Part shown: positions 4,301 through 51,500 of the stretch, in pieces | How the letters are laid out: the number at the start of each line of letters is the position of its first letter | Numbering within the stretch: position 1 is the stretch's first letter | Assembly (NCBI GenBank): GCA_905147135.1 | Contig: LR990056.1 | Span: 3,916,001 to 3,980,000 of the forward strand | Source of the DNA: Blastobasis lacticolella | Lineage: Eukaryota; Arthropoda; Insecta; Lepidoptera; Blastobasidae | Direction of reading: 5' to 3' | DNA length: 64,000 nt | The notes under the pieces: generated by a model | The model's input: the letters and a program-made list of their open reading frames with translations, nothing else | Database searches by the model: none | Told to the model about the DNA's origin: nothing | Made by a program: the position numbers and the translations under genes

Positions 4301-7300
4301 GTGCCTTACCACTACATCTAAACAATAAAAATAACTAAGGCAAATGGACCTGGCTTAATAACATCTCTTAGATGAGAAAATAATTTACCGTTCCTACCGC
4401 ACACAAACACCTTATAAATACACTGCATTGAATTAAGTACAATCACTTGGTATCTCTTTTCTTTAAATACGACATCCTTTTAATATATGTTCATTCAACT
4501 TTGTCTTAAATTCAATGTAATTTTCTATAGTTTTTATATTGGACTATAAAAACTATGGAAACTTACATTTCGCTATATTCATAGATACAATTCACTATCT
4601 TTTTTTTTATTACATACAGTAGGCAAACAGGCAAGCGGGCCACCGGATGGGGAGTGGTCACCACTGCCTAGACATTAGAAACACCACGAGTATCGCCAAT
4701 GCGTTGCCCACCTCTATAACACGTTCCAATCCCCATATTTCTGGTCCCCAGCCAAGACTACCGGCTGGTGTTCAACACTGAGGTGCAAATCGGGATGGCG
4801 AAGGCGGACCGGCTGCTGTACGGGGACTCGTGCATGACGCATGCAATGGTCTTCACCGCTGTCGGCACTGACGTAAGGATGACGACGGATTTTATAATTT
4901 TTTTTTAGTTATTGGTGAAACTAGCTTTAAAAAAATTAATACATGTGCTTGGACAAATTCACACAGCGCCCTCTAGCCCCGAAGTGAGGAAAGCTTGTTT
5001 TATGGGTGATAGATAACTGATAAACTACTTATATACTTTCATTTTTATAATACATACTTATCATACATATTACACCCAGACCCGTAACAGAAATTAAAAT
5101 TCATAATATCAATTTCTGCTCGGAAGGGAATCGAACCCGGGACCTCTGCGTGGCGACCGGTTGGTTAACCAACTGAATCACTCAGGTCGTCCCTTAGGTC
5201 AGGCTATATTGGAAAGATAATGAAATGCCATTTTTGTTTGAATGTTTCGGCCCTGTGGATTATTAGATTGATTTAATATCTCATTTTATATCATTACTAA
5301 ATCAATATTACTTTAATTATATAAATCTATGAAAGAAATTGTCGATAATTAGCATTATACATTATATAGGTTTTCTTAATAGATAGTAGACGCGTTTTGA
5401 GGGTAGAGTCAGCGCCAGATAAGTTTGCTTTTAGGTTATGGCGCCCCTGTCATTGTTTATAAGTTGGAGATCAAATTAAAGATAAAAAATGTAAACACAC
5501 AACTGTTCAGGGGTATAAAACCTTTGGTTTGCATCATGCACACTCATCAGTGCTCGTTACAATGGCTGGTAAACTTTCGAAAACGAAACAAATCGATTTA
5601 CCCCCATTTATTCAATTGATTAAAAACGTAATAAGTAACTTGGAAACTATTAGTCCAAAAACACTAGTTAGAAAACACTAGTAAGAAGTGGCCGCCATTT
5701 TGAATCTTATATTATTTTATGTATTATTATTTAAGAAATTATTAAATATGTCTCGGCGTCGGTCAATCCCTTACTTTCCAAGCCTTTGCAATAATGTACT
5801 GTAACAACGAACCAAAGGTTTAGAATTTCTTACCATTACCAGTAGCATAAATGAAAACTACCCATATTTTATTTAAACATCACAAATACGTAACAAAAAA
5901 CATTTAAGTTCCCTATTTAATTCAGTAAAATGTTTTAAAATATTCATATGATTTTATTTCATTATGAATGTAACATTTTTAATAAATATTTGTAAGATTT
6001 TAAAAAATCCACCATTTGGGTTATATTTTTTTATAGTAGCAACCCTTTGTTTATATTTCTTATCTTTAATTCGATCTCATACCTTAAGTTATTATTAGCT
6101 ATTTATCATAATTCGTTTCTTTGTCATCCGCGAGCAAACTGAAGATGAAGAAGTTCAGCAGGTGCTGAATTTCTTTGATTACAGTTAGGTCCTCTTAATA
6201 TTATCCTAGCTAGATAATCCGTATTTCTTCAACAGGAGAAAGGCAACCCTAAAAAATTCCGCGTGGAGAACTCCTACAGCGACAAAGAGTACGACAAGGG
6301 ATACCTGCTGCTCACAGAGCCTTGGTTCAGAGAGTTTGTGTTCGAGGTAAGTCTATGTTATCATCATATCAGGTGAAAGACGCCCACTGCTGCGCATAGG
6401 CCTCTCCCAAAGGCCGTGTGTGTGTATGAGAGTGGCGACTCGGCCTAAACTATTTTCGATGCGGTTATCTGTTTTATTGAAACACTTTTAGGCCAGTCAA
6501 ATCTTACAAAAAAATGGCCCTAAAACGCAAAGCGCGATGTAACGCTGCATTTTTGGTATGTTATTTGGACCCCTTAAGAGAGTGCGAAACTACATTTTGC
6601 AAGCAAAAAAAAATTGTGCTTCCTGCGTAATACGTGAAAAACTGCGAAATTTTGGGACATTTTTCACTTTCTGGTCTAAAAATGAAAAACTATGCATTTT
6701 TCGACCAATGAAGCTGAATGGCTTTTAAGTCCATTATATTTGCCACTATTTAAGCCCAAACGCAGCTCCACAAAATGTACAGTGACCAAGTTATGACTCT
6801 TCAAAGATGGTCAATTTTTCCGGAAAATTTACAATTTTAGGTTTTGCTCCCGTCCGGAGCAAATTATTGATAAAATCGCTAGTCCTATGATAAAAGCAAC
6901 TAAAAGAAAGTTGTAGTACATTTAATTTACTTTCATAAAAGTAGAAAACGAACTAAGTGAGACTAATAGTTTACTTACAATCTTGAAAATGGTTTTTTGA
7001 AGAATTCTGTGAATACTTATTTGCGTGAATGGTACGGTATGTTTTCAGCCAAATATCGGTATAACCACTTATGCTTAGAGAAAATTTGTTAGAAATTACG
7101 TTTTAATAATAATAAAATACTATCACAAGGTGCCAATCAGCTCCCGAGACCGTTCTATCAGTCTCAGGGTCCTGTGGAAGATATTAGTCAACCTCGCCAA
7201 TTGTATTAAGAGGCGCACCTAAGAAGTGGCGAGCTCGTCGCGGTGCTGAAATTGGACTTGCCTCAATGTACGAAACGGTCCTCTATCCAGTTCTCGGATT

Positions 7301-13541: not shown

Positions 13542-16500
13542 ATGGCTCGATACGGTCAGAGACCGGAAAATGCCCTCAAAAGGGCAAATGGTAAGTAAAA
13601 TTTGATCTTATCATTCCACGTTGCACGCGTCGTAACAGGGCTAAATATTGCAAAATAAGAAATTTACTGAACCTATCTTGTTGCATGTTTGCCATTCGGC
13701 ATATATTAGCACATCCAAAATATTATTGATACCTCCAACGATTTGCTTACGTAAATATTTCACATAACCAAACAAAATATGCACCGACCTCCTTCCGTCT
13801 TTACCAGAATTCATGGACCTGGAGAAGCCCGCTCGGGCCCTGGACACGCTTCAAGAAGTGTTCCGGAACAAGAAATGGGCTTACAACTGGTCGGAGTCAG
13901 TTCTGGAACCAATCATGTTCAAGTACTTGGAACTTTGTGTGGACCTCCGCAAGTCTCACATTGCCAAGGAGGGGCTGTTCCAGTACCGGAACATGTTCCA
14001 ATCTGTGAACGTTGGATCACTGGAACAAGTGATAAGGTAATATTGTTTACTTTTAACTACAAAAACAAAAGATTTGCATTTGTCCTTCAGGAAACTGTTA
14101 CTCCGATAATTCAATAAGAAGTGCCCTATATCACTTTTTAGTGTTGTTTGTCTGGGTATGCTTAACACAAATGTTCGGGTTACATTATTAAAACTATAAA
14201 GAAGTACATTAGGTACCATTTGAAAGAAGGACTACCTACCATACAACTTTCACATATTGTAAGTTTAGTCAATTTATTGTTTCTTAAAGGTGAAGGTGGT
14301 TTGAGTGTTATTGAACTTACAAAAATGTCTTCAGCAATTTTACAATGAAACAATATGTCTATAGCTTTACACATTTTTTGGCTTTGTTGAAAGCTTAAAA
14401 ATAATTTGGCACCTAGTTACTTGGTTTATCTATGAACAAATCTATGTATAAATAAAAAAAATTATTAATAGTTTCATATATCATTCATAATTTTATGTTG
14501 GTACTGCAATCTTTCAATATTATAAGATGTCTAAATCTAAATGCCTGTTAAATATTATAATTAAATGTCTGAATATTATTTTTTATATATATAACAAGTC
14601 TTGTATGTATGCAAAGTACAAATGAAATGCAAATAAACTATTGTCTGCCTCTCTACCATCAGAGGATACCTGCGCATGGCTGAGGAGAGGACTGAAGCTG
14701 CTCGGGCACAATCAACCCAAGCTGTCATTGATACCGATGATCTTGACAATCTTGCGACTCCAGAGAGCATCCTTCTCAGCGCCGTGTCAGGCGAGGATGC
14801 CCAAGACCGGTCCGATAGGACTATTCTTACACCATGGGTAAAAATCTGTTCATATTACTACTTATTTTAGTTTTGCAGACATGTTTAGATAAGCAGCTTG
14901 TGTCATAATTTTGGAAAGTATTTTGATCGGTGACTTAGATAATTATTTACCTTCTAGCAAAAAAAGGTATGAATAATTTTTTTGCATGTAACCGGTACCA
15001 ATCTTTATGAACATTAAATTAAAGTGTAGTTTACTTGCATATTATGCATGTAGGCATAGCCAAATTGGCGTCACTTAAATTTTTTAAACATACAAACAAA
15101 TGTAAGGGCCATTGGGGGTTATTTGCTCATATAATGTTCTTTATTTAAATTATACTTTGTTTCACATAAATTTATACCATTATACATTAATCTAATACAG
15201 GTGAAGTTCCTGTGGGAATCGTACTGCCAGTGCCTGGAGTTACTACGTACCAATGCTCATGTGGAGACACTGTACCATGACATTGCACGCATGGCATTCC
15301 AATTCTGCCTGAAGTACTCGCGCAAAACGGAGTTTAGAAAACTCTGTGACAAGTTGCGCAAACATCTTGAGGATATATGCAAGCCCACTGTGAGTATCTC
15401 TGTTCTCAATAACTTTTTTGAGTAAAAAATAATGCTTGAGTAGTTAATTGTTCTGGAAACAGTTTTAATCACAATATAAACAGTGAAGCCTCTGAAATAA
15501 ATCCCATTTCTAATACTGTTATTATGAATTGGTAGGCCTCAGAGGCAAATTATTTTTGTTAGTTTGACGCGACAGGCTTTAATTGTGATTTATAGTCTGT
15601 GTTAATTTATTCTAGCACATGTTTTTTCCTGTAAACAATTTGTTTATCAACTGTTTCCATTCAATTTTGATATATCAATTACTTTCATATTTGATACCTT
15701 GATTTTTAATTTGTCAGTCAAATGGTTCTAAATGTTTACTACTTTACTATAAGTACTTAGTAGATTTTCATTTTTCGAAATATTAATTTAGACTCATTTT
15801 ACTATCTCTTAAAAGCCAAGGTGCAATACAAATTCTGTACTAAAATTCTTTACGAATGTATAGCACCAACAGTCTCAATACTAAATATACCATTATTATT
15901 ATTCACGTAGTTTCAATCTGGACGTCAGGCGCAAGCGGGTAATGTGAGCATCTCGAAGCCTGAGACGCAGCAGCTGAACCTGGAGACCCGTCTCTTCCAG
16001 CTCGACAGTGCTATACAAATGGAGTTATGGCAGGTCTGGACCTAACTGTAGCATATGATTTGATTCATTTACTGTTATTATGAATCATGTGTTGGGTTTT
16101 TGAATTTATAGCATTAATAGTTTTATCAACATCATGAATTGTGATCTTTAATTTTTATATTGAATAACTTCTAACCTTCATAGTGTTTACCAACTCATCC
16201 ATTAGATTACACTATCACAAACCATGATTGCATCACTCACCTTGCTTTAAACTGGCTTTAGATTTAAATGAACTGCGAATATGTTTTTGTATTATACCAG
16301 CCAGGCATTTTCCTGCCGTATATGTTGACAACTGTTGCCAGTTGTTTGACAACTGCTTGCCTGCTTAATATATTAATAATAATATTTCATAAACATGACA
16401 ATTGTAATGTAGGTGAAATTTTAACAATAATTATGCAATGGACCCTAGAGAAGTAACGCAATGTACATTGAATTTTAATAGTAACTTTAAATCGTCAGTT

Positions 16501-19500
16501 TTGAGTCCAAGTACGGAAAATGGGAGCCCCAAAACCTAAACCTAATTGTCAATTTATGAAATGGCCCCGTGGTGGTAAGTGACGACGCGGCCGAAGATGG
16601 AGCATGCCTGTCTAGGAACAGCCTATTGATCAAGGAACACACTCTCAGTCAATCTGCTCCAATGTGGCATAGTGCCATATGTGGCTACACTATGCCACAA
16701 AAATAACTTTAGAGTGCGGCCGAAAATTGCAACTACATACTGCAGTAAAAAATTTGCCCATTTAGAAGTCCCTTATTGATATTGTCTACCTATTTATACT
16801 TAGTGTGGAACTGATTTGTGCATGCATAGCTGCCACAAAAATCTAAGGATATTTACAATTTCACATACTTATAGCGTCACGCGCACTCATACGCCTTAGA
16901 ACCATCTTTATCATAAATTTCATGAGCATGGTGGGAAGCCTCTGAAATAAATCCCATTTCTAATACTATTATTATGAAATGGTAGGCCTCAGAGGCAAAT
17001 GATGTTGTTAGATTGACGTGACAGGTGGTAATACCAGTTTACCATCTGTGTTAATTTTTTCTAGCACATTTATTTACTACTTGCTAAGTTCACAAAACCA
17101 TACTCATAACATAAAAGTTGATAACATTGCAAACTAAACCAGCTTTGTAAATCCAAAACAAAAATTCGCATTACTCTCACTTGGCAATGTGCCACTTCGA
17201 GCATCATTGTAAAAACTATCTAATTTTGTATCATGACACAATACAGGAAGCCTACAAGGCCATTGAGGACATCCACAACCTGATGAACATGTCAAAGAAG
17301 ACACCTGTGGCAAAGACCATGGCCAATTACTATGGGAAGCTGGCCCTAGTGTTCTGGAAGGCTGGCCACTGCCTGTTCCACGCTGCGGCACTGCTCAAGC
17401 TCTTCCAGTTGTCGAGGGAGATGAAGAAGAACATCACCCAGGAGGAGTTGCAGAAGTAAGTCTTACTGATATATTAATCCGTTTGAGTATCATATCTTTG
17501 CTCTTACGGTGATGAAACCTGCTGATCCATTTTGGTCGGGTTCCCCTATTAACAAGGTCACGGAGGTCAGATGGTAGACTCCAGTGTAATTACCTGATCT
17601 GCCAAATCCTTCATCATGGTTATCCTTTATTATGGAGCCCGGGCCCTTGTGCCCGAGAGCACGACCGGGACACTAACGCAAAGATGATTTTATTTTTTTA
17701 GATATAAGGTGTTAAATAGTATTTAAGCCCCTCCGAAATAAATCCCGTATCCAATAGTCCAATGTTGTGATACGGTAGGCCTCGGAGGGAAATTATTGAG
17801 CAGCCTAGACGCGACAGGACGCGTCTACAGTGCGCGGTCTGTGTTAATAAGTGGCTGTACAACCATATTTCACGAAATATGTGACGCGCGTCCTTAATTT
17901 TGATATTTAGACACACGTACGAACTCAAAGTAAGCGGTTTTTAAGTTCTCGAACTTATCCGATTGCTCTTTTATGAATTTCGTAAATAATTCGGAGTCAA
18001 TGGCTTCGAATAGCTTCGAGTCGAAACCAAAAATGCTGTTAAATCGACCTCCCGACTAACCAACCCCACGCTTCCAGGATGGCGTGCCGAGTACTAGTGG
18101 CTGTGCTGTCGGTGCCTCTTCCGTCGCTTCATCCAGAGTTCGACCGGTTCGTGGAGACGGACAAGAGTCCCGTGGAAAAGGCGCAGCGGCTTGCCGTACT
18201 GTTGGGACTGGCTCAGCCGCCGACGAGGGCTAGCCTGCTCAAAGGTAGGATGCTGAAAAAATTATTGCAAATGATATACCATTACCGAATCGGCTTCCGA
18301 GACTATTCGACTCAACTCAGGGTCCCCAGTAGACCTTGGTCCTTGCTAGAGACTACTGAAGTTTTAAACCGCAATTTAAGTTGGTAGTGTTTGGGGTATC
18401 TGTATGTGTATCCATGTATCTTATTTGTGACATTGTAACTTCTTAATGGTTTCATTTTTAAATTGATAGTTAGTTAAATGGCTTTTAGCTTTGTTTACAA
18501 ATACGGTTATCTTCAACCACCTAGGATATACCCAGTAGATATGCAATCTACAGCAATCACTTTCTTATATCAGTGATTTTACTGGCACTTATTGTCACAC
18601 CTACAAGGCAATGACATTGCCACACCTACAAAAACGAAATGTTTACTGAACTGCCTTAAGTTTCATATACATTGTGGTGAAATTTCAATACTTATTTAGG
18701 TTCACATCAGCTAGTTTACACAACAATGTCGATTTAGACCACTAGCAAACTAGACATCCGAATACAGTACAACTTGTTTTTCATACAAATTTTATGTAAC
18801 CGTATTTTGCCATTCTTTCAAGGTTTTCACGTTTGTAATGTATGTTTGTGCAATTGGCCATTAGTAAATATATCCAAATGAACGTGAAATGGATTTATAC
18901 ATGTTAATAATATAAAACAAAGCACAGTGTATATTAGTTGAATACTGACCAATGCTCTGAGGTGAGGGAAGTCGTGATGAAACCTGCACATTCAGGCGAC
19001 TGGAAGTGTAACCATGATCCAATCTGGTCCGGTTCCCCTGGTAGCAGGGTAATGGATGTCAGATGGCAGTCGCTCCACTGTAATTACCTGACCTGCCAAA
19101 TCCTGTATCATGGTCAAGGCGGACCCCGGGCCCTCGTGCGCGAGAGCACAACCGGGACATTAACGCCAAGATGAGATGAATAATATAAAACAAAGCAATG
19201 AAAAATAATTAATAAATTCTCAACGCCATCTGGCGGCAAATAGTGTTTTTTATTTTCTATTTAACTGCTTTATTTTATATTATTAAGCTATAGAAAGCCA
19301 TTTGCCACACCTTTGAATACATTTACTAAGAGTATAAACCATAATTCAATTACTAAACACTCAAACGAATGAAAGAATAGAAAATAAATATAGTATAGAA
19401 ATCGAACCCCCATTAACTAGTTGTAACTACTTCCTCAGATGTGGTCCGCCTGAATGTGGTGGGTCTGGCCTCTCCTGGCCTGCAGCAGCTGTACTCCTGG

Positions 19501-22500
19501 CTGGAAGTGGAGTTCGACCCGCTCACCATCTGCCACAACGTGCAAGGCGTGGTCACCGCACTGAAGGAGGAGCCTAGTATGTATCTGTTGATTTCGTTTT
19601 AGTTTAGAATTGCAGCTCGTCGAGAGATGGTAATGGTTAACTTTTAGACTCGAGACTCCTGCACATTATTGGAGGGCATTACGTTGACAGGTGTGAGCGT
19701 CGGTAAACTAGTCGTAGTCGGTAGGGGTCCATGATCCAATGTGGTCAGGTTCAAATGTTAACAGGATCACGGAGGTTAAATGGCAGTCGCTCCATAGTAA
19801 TTACCAGATCTTGCAAATCCTGGATCACGGTCAAGGCTGACCCCGGGCATCGAGCGCGAGAGCTCAACCGGGACATTAACGCCAAGATGATTATTTTATA
19901 AGGTAGGCGGGTTCGAGATCGCAGTGCTCAACAGAAAATAGGCACCATTTGACACCCTGGCGACATTTTTGAACTACTTTTTTGTGCTACCTTCTTGGTT
20001 CTTCTTCCACGACAGTTACCAACGGAAGTGGGTTGGCCTCTATTCATCCTACTCTGCCAGACACCACAGGGCTCGACGAGAATGAGCCAGGCCTTTGTTA
20101 ACCCATATATGTTGTTAGTAATGTAACATAACAAAACTTCATACATTCCATGTATTTTTATTGATAAATACGACTATAACTACCATACAAATAAATATAC
20201 AAAAAAATCTCTTTCAGACTCTCCGCTAGCCCAATACACGTCGGCCCTAACAGACGTGGCATTAGTCCGGTTGATTCGCCAAACGGCGCAATGCTACGCC
20301 TGTATTCAATTCGTTAGACTGCTGGAACTGGCTGGAACCGAAGATCTGTTCCATCTGGAACGGCTGCTCGTGGATTGCGTGAGGCACAACGATATGCAGA
20401 TTAGGATCGACCACGCCAACAAGTGAGTTGTGTATGGTGTTTTTACAAGCTTTACCTGTCCTGGGGCTCTATTTTGTAATTGTTAAACTTCGATTCGAGC
20501 GGTTTTCAATTTTGATTTTCGGCAGGAAATATCTATATTTTAAATCACATTGGCAACACCGAAAGAGTATGCTACAAAAACAGAGAAAATCACCATCGAA
20601 ATATCGAATTTGATGGCTGCTTGAGTTATGAATGATCTAAACTTAAAAATAGTTTTACATTATTAGAATTGAAACTCCTCTTGAGGTATTTTCTGTAATA
20701 CTACTAAAAATACCTAATTCTTAAACGCATATAAGTTGACACTTGAACAAAAAACTTCATCCTTAAAAACGCTAAACGTCATAATATCTGTTTATTCTGA
20801 CTTGTCTTATTTGGTGAACAAACAATGCCCAAAATCTCCGACTTGCCGTATCAATCACGCTACGTATATACGTATATTTCAACGAATACTACTGCACATT
20901 ATCCATTTAAATACATAATTAGCTGAACCAAATAGGACAAGACAGAATAAACAGATCATACTTGAACGCGTTTAAGAAATGTAAAGCCGGACTAATTCTC
21001 TATTCGTCTTCACAGATGCGTGCATTTCGGCGTAGAAGCCGGCGGCGGCGAGTGGTGCTCGGCGGCCGACGAGGCGTGCGGCGGCGCCATACTGCAGCCC
21101 ACGCCCGCCGAACAGGCGAGTCACCATATGACACATTTATGTTTCAAGGAGTGAAGTGATATTAGGGGCAATATTGAGCAGTTTTTAACCCCCAACGAGA
21201 AGAGAAGACGTGTGTCTGTCGACGGAGATGTGACATCTCGAATTCGACATTTTTTTAAGCCAAAAATCCATTAATGATTCTGAAATGTTCAACAACATTT
21301 TCTCAGTTCTCTTCGACAATCGTGTAATGTCGAATATGGCTATCAGTGATGCTTTTCATACAGATATTGTAGCTGTGAGATGTCACAGTGCGAGTATAGG
21401 GCTCCAAGCCGACGGGGTAGTAGAGTGTAATGACGTCGGCCCGTTAAGAATGAGCGCTTATAGGACTGGATTGTAGCTATAATAACAAACAGCACGGCTA
21501 GCACAAGTATGCCTGCGACATGTCGCGCGCCGCAAGCGAGCCTGTGTTACCTTCAATACTAAAATGAAAGAGATAGCAGTATATATATATCGCGCCTTTC
21601 GCATATCGCGCGTTAGAGCACTTGTGCTCCGTGCAGTACCAATGAAACCCCCAAAAACTTGTAGTAAACAACCTCTATACCACTAACAGAGTCAATGAAT
21701 AATGAACCCGGACTAATCAAGCTCTACCCACTCCCAGGTCCGCGAGCAACTGGTCCGAGCCGCCTCCGTGCTGTCTCGCGCCGCAGCCACACTCTGCCCG
21801 CTCCGCCGGCGCGGCGAGCGCGAACGTGCTCGCGCGCACATGGTCGCGCACTACCACGAGAACAAGCACGCCGAACACCACCGAGTGTTGCAGCGGCATA
21901 AGATTATTGAAGAGAGAAAGGAGTATATCGAGAGGTTGAATACTGTTCGGGAGGAGGAGGAATTGAGGTGAGAACGATTTTTTTTCTATGCTACTCAGTG
22001 ACAAACGAACAGCCCACCTGATGGTTAGTGGTAACTGTCGCCCGTAACATATACAATTCATGCAATTAGGTTGTAGGTAACAAAAATACAGAACCGCAGG
22101 TTCACTTTGAGGTCAGTTGAAATGCCTTATGCCTCTAATTTCGCTGGCTACCTTATCCTTCAAACCGGAACACAATGCAAGCTTTCCCGAGGATAGCTAC
22201 AGCGTTTAAGGGCCGACCCAAAGCAAAGAGGGTCTTCGCGATTAAAAAATCCGCGAGATGGCGCTACGGAGACGTGGAGCCTTATGTCAAAATGAAGTCG
22301 TCATTGGCTGGAATAGATATGTCATTTTACAGCAGTTGTTTCTATCCAATAGCACGATAGTATTTTGACAACAGACCTTACGCCTTACTAGGGCCATCTG
22401 AGACCGCGAAGACCCTTATTACTATACTTATGGCTTTATTCGGCTTGCGCCGATCGGGTAGTTTATTCGAGTCGACACATCATTTGATTCGGCAGTGCTC

Positions 22501-25500
22501 TACATATAATAGATTTTACCGCCCGGCTGTTCTAATTAATGCCGGCGCATAGTAATATATGTGTATATAGCAACCCTAACAGTATTAACCATCAAGCGGG
22601 CCATACGCTTGGTTACCACTTCAGTGATATAAATAACCCTAATTACATAACTTATTCATATTTACAGACGCCAAGAAGAGCAACTGCGCATAGCCGCGGC
22701 TGCCGAAGCGCGCCGTCTAGAGGCCGAGCGAGAGGAGCGAGAGAAGCGACGCCACGCTTCAGAGATGGCAGCGATGAGGGAGCGGCACTTGAGGGAGCGA
22801 ATGGCGCTCATCTCGATGACTAATGTCGGCAAGAAGGTGCTACAGAAGCTGGATGAGGAGGTTCGTTTGAAGTTCGCTGTTTTCTTTTGTGAAATTAATT
22901 TTTCTTTAACATTTTTTGACGGAACGGGTAGAAAAAGAGGCAAGTGGCACCTGATGGAAAGTGGTCACCGCTGCCTATAAACATGATTAGCAACACCAGT
23001 ACATTGCACATCTCTAAAATCCTGAAATACTTCCATCTGGCAGCAAAAAGACAATCCACTGCTAAAATCACTGGAGATATTACTCTACGTAGCTCAGTAA
23101 CCTGTGGATGGATGAAGCGTGGATGTTTATAATTTCTTCACGCATAAACTACTGAACGTATATATCCTGAATTCCAATGTCATTACCGCGGAATATTCAG
23201 TCGCCAGAATATGCAGGTTTCATCACGATGTTTTCTCTCTACTTAGAGCATCAGTTAGTATTCAACTAATGGACGTAACTTAGAAAAGTGTCATTGGCAT
23301 AATTATGACCGCAGTGGAATTCGAAACCGGTACCTCTCGCTTACTAGTCGGATACCTCAAACACTCGTCCACCGACGCTCCTTACACCCACTACACCCAA
23401 CACTCTTCTTCCCCCAGGACTTAAAGAAAATGGACGCGGAAGCAATCGCCCAACGCGAGGCCGAGGAATTGCTGAAGGAGCGCCGCGAGCTTCAAGCCAG
23501 GCTCAAGTCGCAGGAGAAAAAGGTACCTTTTGGCCAAGGATATAAATACTCCTTTTATTTGCCCATCAATATTTTTTCTGCTTCCTATCGATTGCTTCTG
23601 GTTTGTTCGGGGTAGACTTGGCCATTATCCATGAACGGAAACCTGATCATATTGGACCATACATTCAGTCGACTGAATGACCATGATACATATGTTTTCC
23701 TTCACCAATTAAAAAATTGGGTTGGATGGCTACAACAGCATCCACACACTAGAATGCGGTCGCGGTGCATAAAACAATTAGAATTATGGAGGATTACTAC
23801 TTTTCTCTGTCGCTCCCGCGTCAATAAGTAAGTATAATATAAATGATTCGTCACGCTCGAATTTATTTTTGTTCCGCGACCGCAGTTTAGCATATTTCCA
23901 TTACACATTGACCTAAAGCCAACCACTTACACATCTGAATTATTCGCAAATACATAACATGTCTCATAATTTCCAAGGTGGACTACTTCGAGCGTGCCAA
24001 GCGCCTGGAGGAGATTCCTCTTCTGCAGAAGAGTCTTGAAGAGAAGCAGGTCCAGGACAAGGCGTTTTGGGAGCAGCAGGAGGCGGAACGGATTGCGCAG
24101 CTCATTGGTGAGTGGGGGTGGATTTGTGGTGTATGAGTGTATGTGTTGTCCTTTTATGGGTGGATGTGACTTTTGCAATGAGGAAAGAAACGACTTTTAA
24201 GAGGATAGGGTGTACTGTCAAATAATGCGTGTATACCTTGGGCTTTTGATATATACAATGGCCGTTCATCATCGCAGTCCATTACAGTCCACTGCAGGAC
24301 GTAGGGCCTCTCTCACGAGAGAGGAGGTCATTGCCGTAATCTCCACGCTTGGCAGGCGGGTTGGAGATCGCAGTGTTCTAAATACAACAGTGGAAAATGC
24401 TGCTGCGCATTTTCCAGTCCACGGAGACTAGATCTTTTGTATTGAAAACATTAGTCTAGACATAGACATTATTTATTTTGACATCACAATACACATAATA
24501 CAAAACTCATTGAGCAAGTTACAGTTAATTTGTAAGTTAGTCGCCTTGTACGACACCCACGAGTATATAAGGGGTTGGTGCTACGAGTATTCTACTCTGC
24601 CGGACACCATACGGCCAAATGCACCGACAAAATGGCCGATGCATGTGCCCAAAAAGAACTAGAAGTTAGGAACTAAAACCAGGCACACTATATGGCGAGT
24701 CGGCACGCTTACATCCTGTTGTGGACAAAATTAAATTATAGAGCCTGACCGTATGGAATAAGGAGTTTCTTTCGTCATTGGACTTTTGTGAGTGCTTCCA
24801 TTTTACTACTGCATAAAAATATTAATATGATCTTGGATATTTTTGACGTTTGAAGTTCACCCAGAACGGCTAGCATACGTGTGCCCGTGAAGGTCGCGCC
24901 TTTGTTTCCTACTAAGATGAAAGAGATGGTAGTATCTATGTCGCGCCGTTTTTCACTTGTCGCAAGACTTATTGCTAAATTTCATGATTATAGGTCATTG
25001 GTAACTGCCCCAGAAGTTAGTTATCAAAGTTGTCATTCAACTTGATACTCACAAAGCAACTTTCCATTACTTATAATTAGGAAATTTGGCAAGAAGCAAG
25101 GATTTACAGCACATGTATAGATAAAAAAAGTTGGTAATTTGTATATCACATAAAAATACATGTATAATTTCTTAAGAAAAGGCTATCTTATTTACTGCCA
25201 CAACCAGGAGGACTGTTTTGCTCGTAAATGGTTGAGAATTTGAAAAACGGTGTATAGTAAAAGTTATAGATAATTTTATGTAGATCACCTTAGTGTAAGA
25301 GCATTTTTTGCTATAGCCTGCCATTTTTGAGTTATAAGCAAAAGAACTGTAAAATGTTCACAAAGTTCGAGGGTTTTTGTGTCCCCCCAAGCTAGCACAG
25401 GCTCTTCGAAGTCGAAAACTTAAATTACGCACCCCACACTATTCCGGACAAACTCCCAAAATTTCATTAAAATCGGATGTGCGTCTAGGCCGAAAGTACT

Positions 25501-28500
25501 CGCCGATCGGGCCGATAAGTCCATGTAAACATTTTTTACCGCCAGACTTGAACTACCAAAGTTTTCGTTTAGCGATGTTATGGTTACTCCATTACACTCC
25601 TGGGTGTCGTACAAGACGACTAATGTTTTCCAGACAAATGATCTAGTCTTCATAGACTGGGAAATGTACAGCAGCGTTTTCCATTGCTATATTTATAACA
25701 CTGCTATCTCCAGCCCGCCTGCCAAGCGTGGAGATTACGACAATAACCTCCCCTTTAGTGGGATAGGCTCTAACTCCTTCAGTAAACTGTTATGGGTTTT
25801 GGGGGATTATGTACTGTGACGATGACGATGACAAACACCCTCTCGTCCTGCAGTGTGGACTTAGGTTACTCCATGGTTACACTTCTGGGTGTCGTACAAG
25901 GCGACTAATGTTTTCGAGGAAAATATCTTAGAATCTCCGTTTTCTGGAAAATGGACAGCAGCGTTTTCTATTGTTATATTTATAGCATTGCTGTCTCCAA
26001 TTCGCCTGTTAAGCGTGGAGATCATGGCAAAATCCTCGACTTTCATGGGAGAGGCTCTTAGTCCTGCAGTGGACTATTATGGACTGTGATGATGATGTTA
26101 TGGGCTTTGGGTTGTTACTGCGACGATGACAAACGCTCATCTCTCGTCCTGCAGAGTGGGCTTATGAGTTTTGGGGATTATGATGACAAACGGCCTCATC
26201 TCCCGTCCCCCGCACCCGCGACGAGGGGGTGTTATGTACTGTGACGACTATAATGACAGCATATCTCGTCAACAGAGGCGCGCACCCGCGACGAGGCGAC
26301 GGCGGCCCGGCTGGTGCGCATGCACGGCGCCCGCGACGCGTTCGTGGCGCGCGTGCTCGCCGAGCGCGGCGCCGCGCACCGCCAGCGGCTCGCCGCGCAC
26401 CGCCGGAAGCTGGACGCGGAGCGGGAGCGGCGGCTGGCCGCCAGGAGGAAGGAGAGGGTCGAGAAGCGGCGGCAGGACGTGAGTATCGCATGCACGGCGC
26501 CCGCGACGCGTTCGTGGCGCGCGTGCTCGCCGAGCGCGGCGCCGCGCACCGCCAGCGGCTCGCCGCGCACCGCCGGAAGCTGGACGCGGAGCGGGAGCGG
26601 CGGCTGGCCGCCAGGAGGAAGGAGAGGGTCGAGAAGCGGCGGCAGGACGTGAGTATCGCATGCACGGCGCCCGCGACGCGTTCGTGGCGCGCGTGCTCGC
26701 CGAGCGCGGCGCCGCGCACCGCCAGCGGCTCGCCGCGCACCGCCGGAAGCTGGACGCGGAGCGGGAGCGGCGGCTGGCCGCCAGGAGGAAGGAGAGGGTC
26801 GAGAAGCGGCGGCAGGACGTGAGTACGCTGGTAGTAGGCTCGACGCCGAGAGAGAGCGGAGTTTGCAAAAGGGCGAGAAGCGGCGGCAGGATGTGAGTAG
26901 CTACTGTGGACGCGCGGGTTCATGGCACGACCGCTTCAATAATTCGAGTAGCAATTATTGAAGGCTCGATAAATCGCCATCTCACTCGCTTGCTCTTTGA
27001 GCAAGTTCTGTTTGAGAAATTGGGATGTATAATCCGTTCTCCTACATGCGCTCTGTAGACTCATCATTATGGTCTATAGTAGGGATGTTACGGAGGTGGT
27101 TTTATCGGAGCCGAAGTCGGAGTCGGAGTTTCTAAATTTGGTTTTTCGGAGTCGGAACCGGAATCGGAGTCGGAGGCGGAGTTGGAGATAGTAGCGGTGA
27201 AGAAAGATGTGTAAGGGCAGGCAATAAAATAAAATAGTAAAAACATTAATCAATCAGCCTCTTTAATTTCAATTAAAAAATAATAAACCTGTATCATATA
27301 GGTGTCACAAATAAAAATAAACACATTTTTATGACAGTTAGCAAATTAAATCAAATTGATTGACTCCAGAAGTAGCAAATTGTATTTAATAAACAATAGC
27401 TTTGCAGCTTTGTCTCCGTTCAATATATGTTTTAACGGATCATAGATTAGGCGAGTACCACAAAAAGTTGTTCGCTTGCTACTGAGCCTGGTGGACACGA
27501 TAAATATTGGAGGACAATCGGTTTAAGGGATTGGAATTTTGTATTTCCATTCACTTTCCACTAGTTCCAAATGAAAAACAGATAACTTTAATTGACACAC
27601 CGCACAAAACAAAACAAACCATCCGTATTGAGTAACAACAAGTAAAATATTAATCGATGACAGAACGCGTGCTTTTTCAACGACATGCATTAACCTTCGT
27701 TCGTTCGTACACGTTGACCGCAGCCGCCGCGCGTCGCCGCCGCCGCTATCTGCTATGGTTCGACCTCCGATTAATACCTCCGATTTAAAAGTATCGGAAC
27801 CGAAGTCGGAACCGGAGGTGTAAGATCAATCGGAAGCTCCGACTTATCGGAGTCGGAGTCGAAGCTCCGTAACATCCCTAGTCTATAGATCATAGAGCGC
27901 TTGCGCTTATTATAGTGTACAGTGGAAGAGCATAAATGCATGACCACCTTAAGAATCATAATCCTTTGCACTACTGTGCAGTTGTTAAACGGTTCTTATG
28001 GCATTCATGAATAAATTTTTTATTTATTATGTAAAAAATACCTTAGGGATAAATGACGAGTCCTTTGGGCATAAAAGACAGCTAATGCTTCCTTCTTTTA
28101 TTAAAATACAGCACTTAACGGCAAAGGAAAATTTTCTTGAATTGGTAATGCACTTATTTATACTCTTGTACTATACAAACTATAACGTTTTCCCGTCGTG
28201 TTATACCACTGATGTACCACCTGCACGATGGTGGGGCCACCCTCGATGTTTTCACCGAACTACCACCCAAAACCTAACCCTCGCTCCCTCCCCAGTGGCT
28301 CGAAGAAAAGCGTCTAGTGGAAGAGAAAGCAGCGGAAGCTCTCAAACTCGCTCGCGAGGAAGAAGAGAAACGGATCCGCGAGGAAGAGGAGCGCAGGATC
28401 CGCGAGCAGAGAGACAAGCGACAGCAGGAGGAGAAGGAGCGGAAGGAGAAAGAGGAGAGGTAAGAGTTAGACACCGCTCGGTCTGTAGAGGGAGTCTTGA

Positions 28501-31500
28501 TTAATCATCTTGGCGTTAATGTCCCGGTTGTGCTCTCGCGCACGAGGGCCCGGGGTCCGCCTTGACCATGATCCATGATTTGGCAGGTCAGGTAATTACA
28601 GTGGAGCGACTGCCATCTGACCTCCATGACCCTGCTACCAGGGGAACCTGACCAGATTGGATCATGGTTACACATCCAGTCGCCTGAATGTGCAAGTTTC
28701 ATCACGATGTTTTCCCTCACCGTAACAGCATCGGTTAGTATTCAACTAATGTACATAACTCAGAAAACAGTCTTGACAGAGACACTTGAGCCTTATTTTA
28801 TTCAAGCTCAGTGTTCTTGGTTATGATTTCGCTTTCTATAAATAAATAAATATTTGCGTTATTAGTTCACACTTAATCATTTACAAAGGTTTCCTAACTT
28901 ATAAGGCAACAGAAAACTACACAGAGACTGTGTGAATAACGATGTTCTTTGTTAGGGTCTCTGTGTTACGATAGTGCATGCTATTGTATGGCAGCTTTGC
29001 CATTAGAACGATCACTTTGATCGATTTAATTCGTTTGGAAGTCGCTTCGCATCGCCCGATTCCGTACGTTTATAGAGCACACCTCGTCCGTGGTGTCCGG
29101 CAGAGCAGAATAGCACCAACCCCTTACACTCGTGGGTGTCGTACAAGGCGACTAATGTTTTCGAGGCAAAAGATCTATAGTCTCCGTAGTCTGGAAAATG
29201 GGCAGCAGCATTTTCCATTGGTATATTATAACACTACGATCTCCAACCCGCCTGCCAAGCGTGAAGATTATGGCAATAACCTCCCTTTTTGTGGGAGAGG
29301 CCCTAAGTCCTGCAGTGGAATGTAGATCTGTAAAAAAATTTAAATCTGTTGGCAAATTAAATAAATAAATAACCTTGCTCTCACAGTGTAATTTGACAGC
29401 TCCCTATTTCTCAGCTAACGTTCCTTTGTTCCCCCAGGGATCACCAAGAGATGCTGGCCCGCACCGAGGCCAAGAGGGTCGCCAGGGAGGCCGAGGTCCA
29501 ACGCAAACTGGAAGAACAGAAGGCTCCGGCCGCCGGCGGCGGTGGGTCCAGCTGGCGAAGAGACGCTCCTCGCACCGAGCCAAGGGCCGAGAGGCCCGAG
29601 AGGACCGATGACTCTTCCGCCTGGCGGAAGCCGCCAGAGAGGGACGCTAGAGACGCCAGAGAGCCGGAGAGGCGCCCCGCCGAGCCGTGGAGGCCGAGTA
29701 AGTGATTGCTTTTTGTTTTCATTCTAGTGGCGAGCTAAAACCGCGCGTAAGAGTGAACTTTGTGTTGGATTCACACGCTTTCGACATTATAATTCGATAT
29801 TTTCCCTAGGTAATTAATTACATTTTCAATAGAGATATTTAGAAAAAATGTCGAATTTCAAGATATCATAGCGCCATAGAGACTAAGACCCCTTATAGAG
29901 ATAGTCCACCTAATGGGTAAGTACCGATTCATAGGTGTGGGAATACGTGCGTTATTCTGTTGACGAATTAAGGTGGCTTCGCTGGCTATTTCTTGTTGAG
30001 ATACTGGATTTTATTCAGACTTCAGTCGGACGCGAGCGATGTTAATGTCACCGCACAGTTTACGCTTGTGGTGCTGTCTGCTACGATGCTCTAGGAATTT
30101 ACCCGTCGATTGAAACACTGCTAATGGATATTATTCTATGAGCAATACATTCCACTTTGATTTCGCTCTCACGCTTTCTTCTTCAGAACTTTGCCAAGTG
30201 TTCAAAAGCCTTTAATTTAATATTTTCGAACTCTTATATTGTATTTGTCAGGCCGCGGGCGCGAGCCGCCTTCGCGCTCGCCGGAGCGCCGCCGCGAGGA
30301 CCGCTCCCGGGAGGACAAGCCGCCGGCGCCCAGGGAGGACAGGTATGCCATTTATTGGATTTTCTTTTCTTTATGCAACAAGCTACAGCACATTACACCA
30401 TAAGTAAACAAATAACAAGTTATATGCAAATAGACCAGTTACAGATTCACACTATGTAACTTTATATTTTATACAAACAAAGAAGGTGCATATATGAAAA
30501 AAAGCAGTACTTATCAAATAGTACATAACGCATTGCACATACCGTAGCGAGAGCAAAGCGACTTGGCATCTTGGCTAGACTGTCAGACTAGATTCTGATC
30601 AGTAAAATTCGAGTCGGTAGCGCATGAGACTCTTGATCCTCAGGGTCGTGGTTTAGTGCCCCATATTGAGCCAATTGTAATGTGCAATTTCTATGAACGT
30701 CCCCTTTAAGTTTGTTTTTTTAAGGCCCAGCACGTCGCTTAGACAAATTCAAAAGTTATATAAAATTATCTTACCTCCGAGAAGTAAGGTCCGCTGCCAA
30801 AACACTGCAGTGCAGAGCTCACGTATCGCGAAAATCCTCATTTCTATTGACGCATGACCTCTGATTTGTAAATGTTCATTTGCCCCATTAAAAAGATACA
30901 ATGGTAACAAGTAACTCCACATCAATGACACCCACATTCTTCCGTAGACGCGAGGACCGCCCACCACGCGAAGACCGCTCGCGAGAGGATCGTGCCCCAC
31001 GCGACGACCGCTCGCGGGAGGATCGTACGCCACGCGACGACCGTCCTCGCGACGATCGTCCACGCGACGAGCGACCTCGCGAAGAGCGTCCACGCGACGA
31101 ACGTCCTCGCGAGGACGCGTGGCGGTCCGCGCCGCGCGACGCTGACCGCGACCGCGACCGTGACCGCGAACGCGACAGGTGAGTGGCATTTTACCTCGCC
31201 AGTGACGTGAATGAAGTCTTCTACACTGCTTAACAACTACAAATAACAGGGGCCTAATAATGTTACATCTCGAATTCGACATTTTTCTAGCCACACATCT
31301 CCATTAACAATAACTTTGAAATGTCTGTTGTAGCCAAAAAAAATCGACTCTTCGACTGTTATGTATTACGACAATCAATTTCAGTAACGTTTTAATATCG
31401 ATTTTGCGGCATCTCATAAAACTTATGCCAATCGATAGCAAACTTTAATATCTGTCGATCATTTTATGTTTAAAAATGTCGAAAACGGTATATCTTGCGA

Positions 31501-42845: not shown

Positions 42846-43180
42846 CCTAGTTTATCAATAGATACATCGGGTAAAATTTTATGGGTGACAGACAGTTCTT
42901 TACCGCTTTTCATCATGTAGGCTGTCTGCCACCAAGTTTGTTAGTAAGTGGAAGGTATAAGAAATATAGATGAAGATCATCAAGCAACGAAAAGCCACTT
43001 TCAAGTGCGACAGGTTTTAAGTTCCGAAACTTATGGCGGACTAATTCATTGGAACTTGTTTCATGCAGTGTTTCTAGAAGTAATAAAATCAAATTGCGGA
43101 ATAAAATTAATTTAAATAAATAAAAAGTTTATTAAATCTTGTGAAATACATTTCAATTTTAGATGTAAAAAAACACAAAT

Positions 43181-43277
43181 TTACAAATTGGGCAAATTTG
43201 ATAACATATGGTCGAAATCTGCGAAATAGGGGTCTTCTTCTAGATATTCTTGTGCCATCTCTTGTCGGCATCCTCGG
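43181..43277 (-). other. Possible terminal coding exon or retrocopy fragment
   Basis: On the minus strand, after an acceptor-like CCTTGAAACAG, a 97-base stretch reads EMAQEYLEEDPYFADFDHML, then SNLPNL and a TAA stop. An AATAAA signal on the same strand lies about 65 bases further on. The acidic composition looks protein-like, but no upstream exon was found. A different frame gives a repeat-like peptide, so a transposon fragment is the main alternative. Confidence 0.25.
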
Positions 43278-44174
43278 CTGTTTCAAGGTCACAGCCCCGA
43301 AAATTAGGAATGACGTGCCACCCCCGGTTCGTAGTGCACTGTCGGTGACTTTAGTCGCTACGTTCCATAAAAAATGTTAGTCGTGGCTGCTCTTGAAGCA
43401 GTCGAGGGATGCCAGCAATCTTCAATATTTGTGGTGGTGGCAATGTTGTATAGGGTTTGGGGTATTGGTGTATTGGAACATGTTTATTTTGAATATTATT
43501 AGTTTAAAATAGATTGTGTATTAATGGGTGCATAAGGTTTAATTTACATGTCATACAAAGTACGCAATATGTTCTTAGAAAAGTGTGTGATGTATGTGTT
43601 TTATTGTTATCCTAGCCTAAGCATTGTGTGGTTGGACTAAGATGACACTTGGCCATGGTAGAATATCAGCTCCTGGTGGTCTCACTTGCAGCCGCAGCTG
43701 AGCCATGGACCACTTTGTTTTGTATTTCTAGTTGTTTTTTATGGTCGACAGCAGTCGAATTTATTTAAATTGTTGTCTTATGCAAAACAAATTAATGTTT
43801 TTATTTTAATTTGCATTTATCTAAAGCCGGGGTAACTCGCTAGTCATTTATTATAAATCTGATAATGAAGCAGAAAGAAGGGAAAACCAATCAGTTGTTT
43901 AAATCGTCGAAATCCTTCCTAACACCATTGAAATTTGCACTTTCGTATCGAATCGGTATTCCCACGCAAATAATTATCATTACTATATTATTGAAAACCC
44001 CGATGAGATTAGTACACTATAATAAGACAATTTTTATCAAAATTTCCTAAGATTATCTAATAACTATGATGGATCGTCTTTGAATCCCAATTAACCCAAT
44101 TTTTATCAAATTTTTGTATTAAGAGATTATATGACTCTATCATTATTATAATCGACAATCAACAAGAAGGTTTG

Positions 44175-49200: not shown

Positions 49201-51500
49201 CCATAAATACTGCACATCGGCTAGTTTCGGCTTCGTATTTACTCACACGGCACACTCTACGAGCCGAACTAGCCGATGTGTATTTAGTACCGTTACCATC
49301 AGAGGTACATTATTCGTGGGTAGAGTTTGTAGAGACACAGGTACAAATATAATCTTTAGATATGCCTGAGGCTTGATGTCTCTCTGTATTAAAATGCCAC
49401 CAATTTATCTGAACTACTTAGCTTGTTTGAGTAGCTTGTATTAAAATGGCACTGACACCATTGACATGGCATTTTCAAATAGTAGGTATAACAATTTCTA
49501 GTTCAGATGTTATTACTGAAGAGGAGTAGCTAGAGAGTTTAGGAAAGCGCTTTGATATCTTTAATATGATGGATTTTGATAGATATGGGTTTGAAACCTT
49601 TAGTGTGACTGTGGTTTGGAATAGTGCAACTTTTGCATCGTTCATCTTTTGTAAAGCTGGTTCAGAGAGCGCGTTGATATCCTATATGTCTCCAAACCAG
49701 CCTTACAAAGGACAGCAAAGCGCTATCCCAATCCGGCCTGGATAGCGCTTCGATGTCCTTTGTAAGGCTGGTTTGCAGAGCGCGTCGATGTCTTTTATAC
49801 GACTGGTTTGAGACACTGGAATAACGATTGTTCCCTTATTCAAATATTATTTAATTATTTATTAAAACGGTCAGTCTTTAATGTAACCTACATAAGATAT
49901 GGTATACATACATCCAAATTCGCCAATATCAATTCGCATTTGGTACTCGAGCAGCCATCACTGTATTAGTTAGTATTATATTTAACTTGATTGTAACTGT
50001 GTCTCTATTTTATAATTATTTTACAAGTTATTGTCAACGTCGTGGTTTTAATCAGTGAATAATCCACTTCACATCCAAGAAGAGTGGGATTTCCACACCT
50101 AACATCAGTACCTTAAACTAGTATCCTGTCGAATACACGTCCTCCAATCCATAGATGTTTGTTTTGGACTTACGCAGCTGCATCTTGCCGTTCAGCAAAT
50201 ATATAGCTTTGGCAGGGCAGGCATTCTAAAAACAGTTTTCCATCAACACTGAAGCCCACCACTGCAGTCGTACGAGACGCAGTCCCATGTCCTTGAGATC
50301 ACCTCTGCAGCAGTCCATTTCCAGAGGCGACAGACCAAAACAAAATGAATTGCCTTAGACCACTAACTTGACTAATAAATGTCTTAGCCAAAACAGACTT
50401 TTCTCAGGACACAACAATTTATAGACTACTTCTTTGTGCGAAATTATCTGAATAGAAAGTAGTCAGATAAATTATTAACAGTTCAACTTTCTTTCGTAAT
50501 AAACTTAACAATCTTATGTAAAATTAAAATAAGCTGAGGCCGACTCTACATCCTCTTGATAAGGCTTTGCATCCGATTATTCATTTTTATTTGTGTTTAT
50601 TTATGTTTATCTTTTCATTTTCGCCCAAAACTTACACATTCCAATTGAGCGGCAGTGGCCTTGATTAATCGTAATAAATCGTACCGAGTTCGATCCACTG
50701 TGCCGCCATGTGACTACTAATAACTTTTACTCTTACGGTGAGGGAAAACATCGTGATACAACCTGCCCATTCAGGCAACTGAATATGTACTTAATAATTA
50801 TCCAATCTCGTCAGGTTCTCCTTTTAACAGGGTCACGGAGGTCAGATGACACTCGCTCTACCGTAATTACCTGATCTGCCAAATCCTGGATTATTGCAAA
50901 GTGGACCCCGGGCCTGGGATATCGGCGCCAAGATGCAATAAACCGCATTCAAATTGATGCACTTGACGTGTCATCAAGTGATCATCATAATTCCTTAGGT
51001 CAATCCCGGTTTGTGCTAGGATCGTGTTGTACGTCCCGAAAAAATATGTTAGTAGATTAGAACCTAACGAGATAGGAAGTTGAATTAAAAATTAGTAGCC
51101 TTCCTAATTCCTAAGTACTCAATTCTAACTTCACAGCCATTCATGGCGAAGACCGGTTCAAAATTAGTTAAGTAGTTTTGCGTGAATCGTTCATCCTTCA
51201 ATTGTAAACAATTTTTAACCCATTAAGTATTAAATATACACAATATTGGGTGCATATGTAATACTCAGTGACGATGCGGTTATGTCGGTATTAAGCAACG
51301 TTCTATAAAAATCTAGATCGACAATTTGACCTAGGTATCTGCTCTGAATTACGTTATATATCTGTTACATTCACTACCTAAGAATTATGCGATTCTGCAC
51401 AGCGCAACACAATGGCGATATCAATAAACAACTCGATCGTGTCCCCAAGCATTCGGAGCTCGAACCCAGTCGGCCGGTTGTGAAAGTTTTTATTCTTTTT
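46253..51500. other. Repeat-filled spacer after the protease pair
   Basis: No gene recognised. Identified content: SINE A at 46905-47210 (with tRNA-like head) and 50680-50935; a family-D piece at 47280-47405; SINE B at 47400-47530; a Helitron-like 5' part at 47918-48050 (AACAAAGTCGCTTCCCGCCG) joined to a SINE A tail at 48050-48120; two strong hairpins at 49200-49290 and 49694-49774. The remainder is A/T-rich sequence with no long open frame that looks coding. Confidence 0.55.
49694..49774. repeat. 81-nt near-perfect hairpin
   Basis: The arm AAACCAGCCTTACAAAGGAC, then AGCAAAGCGCTATCC, pairs with the inverse TTTGTAAGGCTGGTTT side with two or three mismatches over about 35 bp and a loop near ten bases. 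Degenerate copies of the same arm (GCTGGTT, then GAGAGCGCGTTGATATC) flank it on both sides. The size suits a small-RNA precursor, but the flanking copies make a small repeat element equally likely. Confidence 0.5.

Follow-up and report, generated by a model that had tools for sequence, protein, structure and literature searches.

Box H/ACA small nucleolar RNAs (snoRNAs) encoded in introns are cut out after splicing and bind dyskerin, Gar1, Nhp2 and Nop10, and the resulting ribonucleoproteins (RNPs) isomerise a uridine left unpaired between two guide duplexes. In the chicken survey, Table 2 assigns position 55 of 5.8S ribosomal RNA (5.8S-55) to chicken GGgACA1 and mammalian U72 (SNORA72), and places three copies of another H/ACA RNA, GGgACA4, in PABPC4 (introns 6, 7 and 10; PMC2653536). 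The same source describes cis-duplication of H/ACA RNAs inside one gene, in which the guide strands and the structure are conserved, and counts approximately 90% of chicken H/ACA RNAs as singletons. In human, EIF3A contains one H/ACA RNA, SNORA19 (PMC8759569). Here we describe three candidate H/ACA snoRNAs in three consecutive introns of the eIF3a gene of the lepidopteran Blastobasis lacticolella, within a stretch of 64,000 nucleotides (nt) denoted the window (assembly GCA_905147135.1, contig LR990056.1, positions 3,916,001 to 3,980,000, forward strand).

The locus combines features of these described systems. SNORA19 is likewise an intronic H/ACA snoRNA with eIF3a as its host, with one copy in human EIF3A and three here (PMC8759569); kinship with SNORA19, sought through Rfam alone, gave no match. 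GGgACA4 also comprises three paralogues in introns of one translation-related gene, so the multi-intron arrangement has precedent, but its target (18S-36) and its host (PABPC4) are different (PMC2653536). U72 and GGgACA1 are H/ACA RNAs predicted for the aligned 5.8S uridine (PMC2653536), whereas their hosts are RPL30 and an expressed sequence tag (two isoforms) rather than eIF3a with three copies, and the chicken 5.8S guide lies in the 5' hairpin with 7 + 5 nt, in contrast to the 3' hairpin with 7 + 7 (6 + 6 in copy 3) in the present case. Judging from the predicted pairing, the copies may act like U72 at 5.8S; with no match in Rfam, descent from U72 is not implied.

In insects, 95% of the snoRNAs expressed in Drosophila S2 cells lie in introns, with 73 of 239 assigned to ribosomal protein host genes (PMC13228274, preprint). 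An orthologue of the RNAs described here may already be published, because an experimental catalogue of 141 silkworm snoRNAs exists (Li et al. 2011, as cited in PMC3849828). Among the titles and abstract openings of the matches listed, with subscription papers thinly covered, no report of snoRNAs in an insect eIF3a was found.

We estimate at roughly 0.85 the probability that the three units are paralogous box H/ACA snoRNAs from eIF3a introns, with the 3' hairpin directing modification of U54 in 5.8S and the 5' pocket serving a second site. The sequence features make a convincing case for a putative new H/ACA guide family, of a class already known.

Layout and covariation of the three units

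Each unit consists of a 5' hairpin (8-base-pair (bp) lower stem, pocket of 8 + 6 nt, upper stem), an ANANNA box that follows directly, a second pocketed hairpin, an ACA and 3 further nt, the 3' end being placed by the position of the ACA (Table 1). In box H/ACA snoRNAs, the upper-stem base lies about 13-16 nt from the H or ACA box; here this spacing is 14 nt for the first hairpin (to the H box) and 16 nt for the second (to the ACA), and is constant across all three copies. All copies thus combine the defining features of box H/ACA RNAs, namely two pocketed hairpins, ANANNA, an ACA 3 nt from the 3' end and 14/16-nt spacing. A previous inspection of the letters of the window (the sequence-only reading) had placed three related units in consecutive introns, in the orientation of the host gene, each with two hairpins, an ANANNA between them and an ACA near the 3' end; element-by-element reading confirms all of this in the three copies, the units starting 3-4 nt inside the starts that were then proposed.

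The copies also stand out when both strands of the window are scanned for H/ACA geometry: among 13 matches they take ranks 1-3 (75.5, 75.0 and 64.0), with 55.5 as the next score, the top score among 100 Markov windows being 60.0. The next-best H/ACA-like geometries, at 24371-24492 (-), 43161-43314 (-) and 54356-54488 (+), score 55.5, 53.0 and 49.0, within the range of random-window maxima. Our own model was run against the window and, as controls, against four other loci (L005, L006, L012 and L014); it returned the three copies and one weak match, at 50285-50409 (-) in the window (14.5 bits, E 0.38), which was taken as chance. A further candidate copy at 4941-4966 (-), resembling the last 26 nt of copy 1, was rejected, as it is without hairpin structure (z +0.8).

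The strongest evidence comes from comparison of the copies with one another. Among the 36 stem pairs of copies 2 and 3, 12 have changed on both sides and are still paired, 3 have changed on one side and are still paired, 1 is broken and 20 are unchanged; with an equal number of substitutions placed randomly, double changes are expected at a mean of 2.55, and 12 were reached in none of 200,000 simulations. The four compensatory changes that the sequence-only reading had seen in the 5' hairpin of these two copies are all present, yet four is an undercount, because there are five in this hairpin (the fifth, T-A to C-G, lies near the apex) and seven in the 3' hairpin. Between copies 1 and 2, two double changes are kept, and one double and one single change are broken. 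Standard pairs occupy 105 of 108 pair cells across the three copies (97.2%); mismatches are a T.T in each upper stem of copy 1 and an A.G in the 3' upper stem of copy 3. Changes on both sides affect 13 pairs among the three copies, a number matched in 0 of 500 shuffles, and the number of further pair types was matched in 3 of 500; when the partners are slid by 1-3 columns, both-side-changed pairs fall from 13 to 1-2. The pairing in the copies is under selection.

The strands of the 5' pocket, AATAAATC and TAGGCC, had been read as unchanged between copies 2 and 3, and their 14 positions indeed show no difference among the three copies. Stem positions of the 5' hairpin are alike at 39 of 40 positions between copies 1 and 2 and at 29 of 40 between copies 2 and 3, and the invariance of the pocket is accordingly most telling for copy 3, since copies 1 and 2 are close in this hairpin anyway.

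Folding agrees with the proposed structures for the whole copies (z -3.1, -6.6 and -5.2 for copies 1, 2 and 3, with 0 of 200 shuffles as stable for each), but the isolated 3' hairpins of copies 1 and 3 are weak. For copy 1, this hairpin folded alone has poor energy support (z -1.9, 6 of 200 shuffles as stable). In copy 3, the minimum-energy fold departs from the conserved fold, and the predicted conserved fold of its 3' hairpin is supported by covariation rather than energy.

Table 1. Positions in the window of the candidate snoRNAs, their elements and the exon between the second and third host introns
Feature	Position	Strand	Remarks
H/ACA snoRNA candidate, copy 1	15488..15622	+	135 nt; inside intron 15390-15910; 150.0 bits with own model (by construction)
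H/ACA snoRNA candidate, copy 2	16938..17071	+	134 nt; inside intron 16034-17246; 158.4 bits with own model (by construction)
H/ACA snoRNA candidate, copy 3	17729..17864	+	136 nt; inside intron 17456-18077; 144.8 bits with own model (by construction)
5' pocket left strand AATAAATC	copy 1 15496..15503; copy 2 16946-16953; copy 3 17737-17744	+	same letters in all three copies
5' pocket right strand TAGGCC	copy 1 15533..15538; copy 2 16983-16988; copy 3 17776-17781	+	same letters in all three copies
H box (ANANNA)	copy 1 AAATTA 15547..15552; copy 2 AAATGA 16997-17002; copy 3 AAATTA 17790-17795	+	
3' pocket left strand	copy 1 15563..15571; copy 2 17012-17020; copy 3 17805-17813	+	predicted to pair with 5.8S downstream of target U
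3' pocket right strand	copy 1 15601..15611; copy 2 17050-17060; copy 3 17843-17853	+	predicted to pair with 5.8S upstream of target U
ACA box	copy 1 15617-15619; copy 2 17066-17068; copy 3 17859-17861	+	
eIF3a exon separating introns of copies 2 and 3	17247..17455	+	PF22591, 77 bits for 17250-17450

Predicted target of the 3' pocket

Targets were sought in the ribosomal RNA (rRNA) of the species itself, encoded in the ribosomal DNA (rDNA) locus L022, where 18S (90-1992), 5.8S (2367-2523) and approximately the 5' two thirds of 28S amount to some 4.8 kb scanned. The rDNA was located with a eukaryotic 18S stretch (L012) that had been found by pattern among bacterial records, using the best 40 of 52 candidates. 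In all three copies, the best match of the 3' pocket is one and the same uridine, nt 54 of 5.8S (L022:2420), in AGUUAAC[U]G-CGCGUCA, at zero offset, with 7+7, 7+7 and 6+6 bp and scores of 32.5, 30.0 and 28.5 for copies 1, 2 and 3. The zero-offset runners-up in the same rRNA score 16.5, 17.0 and 15.5, and with a 1-nt offset allowed over the whole 10-kb locus the next scores are 22.0, 21.5 and 20.0. Shuffled rRNA reaches the scores of the three copies in 0, 1 and 1 of 100 cases, and the score summed over copies is 91 for 5.8S U54 and 46 for the next site. The left-arm duplexes with 5.8S have energies of -11.1, -9.2 and -11.0 kcal/mol. An 18S site before GCGTTGATTACG was rejected as a target of this pocket, with 18.5 (offset allowed) versus 32.5 for 5.8S (copy 1, own genome).

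U54 aligns with the bracketed position of GCTAGC[T]GCGAG in the 5.8S of another rDNA-bearing record (L010), which by our count is U55 of human 5.8S. The 3' pocket is a strong fit to this site and is predicted to guide the uridine aligned with vertebrate 5.8S Psi55. The proposal of the sequence-only reading that the units form a family of pseudouridylation guides is thereby supported on several sides: the H/ACA geometry, the covariation in both hairpins, the invariant 5' guide strands and the match between the 3' pocket and a 5.8S position known to be a pseudouridine in vertebrates.

The three snoRNAs would be released from consecutive introns of one eIF3a pre-mRNA, and each copy would assemble into an RNP with dyskerin/Cbf5. 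The strands of the 3' hairpin would then bracket the U-G in 5.8S, and the dyskerin/Cbf5 complex would turn U54 into pseudouridine, the 5' pocket presumably guiding modification of a second site outside 18S, 5.8S and the scanned 28S.

Several observations were made on the rDNA itself. Two interruptions, after 5713 and after 9903, break up the 28S of L022, and the remainder is obscured in other units by inserts or runs of N. The inserts lie at two nearby sites (L022:5714-9835 and after 9903; L037 after 3784), which resemble the R2 and R1 retrotransposon sites. Exactly 5,000 N are found inside seven rDNA units (L024:3116-8115, L025:2591-7590, L026:1502-6501, L028:2758-7757, L033:3116-8115, L035:816-5815 and L036:1546-6545), 10,000 N extend across L030:58 to L031:57 within rDNA, and the N runs of L032, L037 and L038 continue to the end of the stretch examined; such runs may be gaps in the assembly or masked letters. 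Matches to 18S among the best 40 of 52 candidates fall on at least seven contigs (C1, C3, C12, C15, C21, C26 and C29), which places rDNA at several locations in the assembly. Ten bacterial or archaeal collection records (L005-L014) carry eukaryotic rDNA, presumably as contamination, and L009 also contains two group I introns.

Copy number, the 5' pocket and competing explanations

A number of points weigh against the assignment of the units to H/ACA snoRNAs with a 5.8S target. The limits of the geometry scan were chosen with the copies already known and were relaxed once; a stricter scan with no mismatch allowed found copy 2 alone, and nothing in 20 random windows. The 13 matches in the window against a mean of 3.84 per Markov window imply that real sequence yields more low-scoring matches than the control. 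Folded alone, the 3' hairpin of copy 3 does not prefer the conserved fold (z -0.95, 33 of 200 shuffles as stable). The right-arm duplexes with 5.8S are weak (-3.3, -3.3 and -4.0 kcal/mol), and the agreement of the copies on the target does not amount to three independent results, because they share ancestry. Rfam gave no family at the gathering score over the whole window, and with E up to 10 the region 15000-18300 gave five weak matches, of which the two overlapping a copy are on the opposite strand and not H/ACA. No target for the 5' pocket emerged in 18S, 5.8S or approximately the 5' two thirds of 28S, the best score, 13, being equalled by 98 of 100 shuffles. As to Rfam, a U72 model is present in the database, and fast-diverging guides can escape it.

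Given that score, the target of the 5' pocket would lie outside 18S, 5.8S and the scanned 28S, most likely in the 3' third of 28S. A 28S stretch considered as a possible target, GGCCTATCGATCC, was rejected because the rDNA loci examined did not yield it; in these loci, 28S extends only as far as the second insertion site. It is doubtful, though conceivable, that the 5' guide, kept at 14 of 14 positions despite the divergence of the copy 3 stems, aims off the rRNA list altogether, whether at a small nuclear RNA (snRNA), at an mRNA or at an rRNA site specific to insects, and that triplication of the gene served to increase the dosage of both this activity and 5.8S pseudouridylation.

Should the copies be H/ACA snoRNAs whose 5.8S match is coincidental, their true targets would be elsewhere, in the rest of 28S, an snRNA or an mRNA. 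The frequency with which shuffles reach a single-copy score (0-1 of 100) makes chance not absurd for one copy, and the 5' pocket without a target in the scanned rRNA fits such a scenario; however, the match has zero offset, reaches about twice the runner-up when summed over copies and hits a position that in vertebrates is a known pseudouridine served by a guide of its own, and we regard a coincidence as unlikely. Origin of the units from a mobile element or a snoRNA retroposon family, with some of the retroposed copies dead, would be in keeping with the fact that homology ends where the RNA ends: outside the RNA, no homology was detected among the three introns, as 109, 92 and 71 of 300 shuffles scored at least as high as the best flank comparisons. 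This explanation is nevertheless very improbable, as the units occur three times in the same gene on the same strand, no clear target-site duplications were found (direct repeats in the flanks reach no more than 4-6 nt and lie at non-matching distances from the two ends) and, unlike in dead copies, the stems are maintained by compensatory change. Furthermore, dispersal at many loci, which the sequence-only reading had named as the observation that would speak for a mobile repeat, was not seen: a search of the whole assembly (577 Mb, 45 contigs) with copy 1 and E up to 10 returned copies 1 and 2 alone, both in the eIF3a gene. Because copy 3 escaped this search, only close relatives are within its reach, and diverged ones may exist elsewhere. 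A search of viral contigs with the 5' guide gave 0 matches.

Three consecutive introns of one gene, all in sense orientation, could also suggest an intronic structure that affects eIF3a splicing and is not released as a snoRNA. Such a role would need neither H/ACA boxes nor the 14/16-nt spacing, the invariant part consists of the 5' pocket strands and not of the stems, and the distance of the units from the 5' splice site varies (98, 904 and 273 nt for copies 1, 2 and 3), so that a splicing element is hardly credible here. Returning to the reading as paralogous snoRNAs, we infer that the copies derived by duplication within the eIF3a gene. Spread from intron to intron, as suggested by the sequence-only reading, is compatible with the data, in which neither flank homology nor a clear target-site duplication marks its route.

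The host gene and implications

The three host introns have GT...AG ends, as read from the sequence. The translated exon between the second and third introns matches the Pfam profile eIF3a_PCI_TPR-like (Table 1), and translated 18082-18300, after the third intron, matches the section of this profile that comes next, at 19.3 bits, which is under the cut-off of 27. A repeated element, unrelated to the snoRNA, is present in eIF3a introns at 17523-17687 (just upstream of copy 3), 19012-19174 and 19729-19890 (+) and at 28505-28741 (-); the plus-strand copies are 74-90% alike in blocks, and the minus-strand copy is known only via a translation in the list of open reading frames (ORFs). Within the apparent eIF3a gene, 26187-26935 encodes a charged peptide in near-identical tandem units; two ORFs have the same opening and starts 170 bases apart.

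The locus illustrates that covariation between paralogues within one gene can reveal a structured RNA without recourse to any other genome. It also provides a concrete candidate guide for an insect 5.8S pseudouridine, at a site shared with vertebrates and with a different host and guide arrangement. If orthologues confirm the assignment, the same modification would have been kept while the guide RNA changed hairpin, host and copy number.

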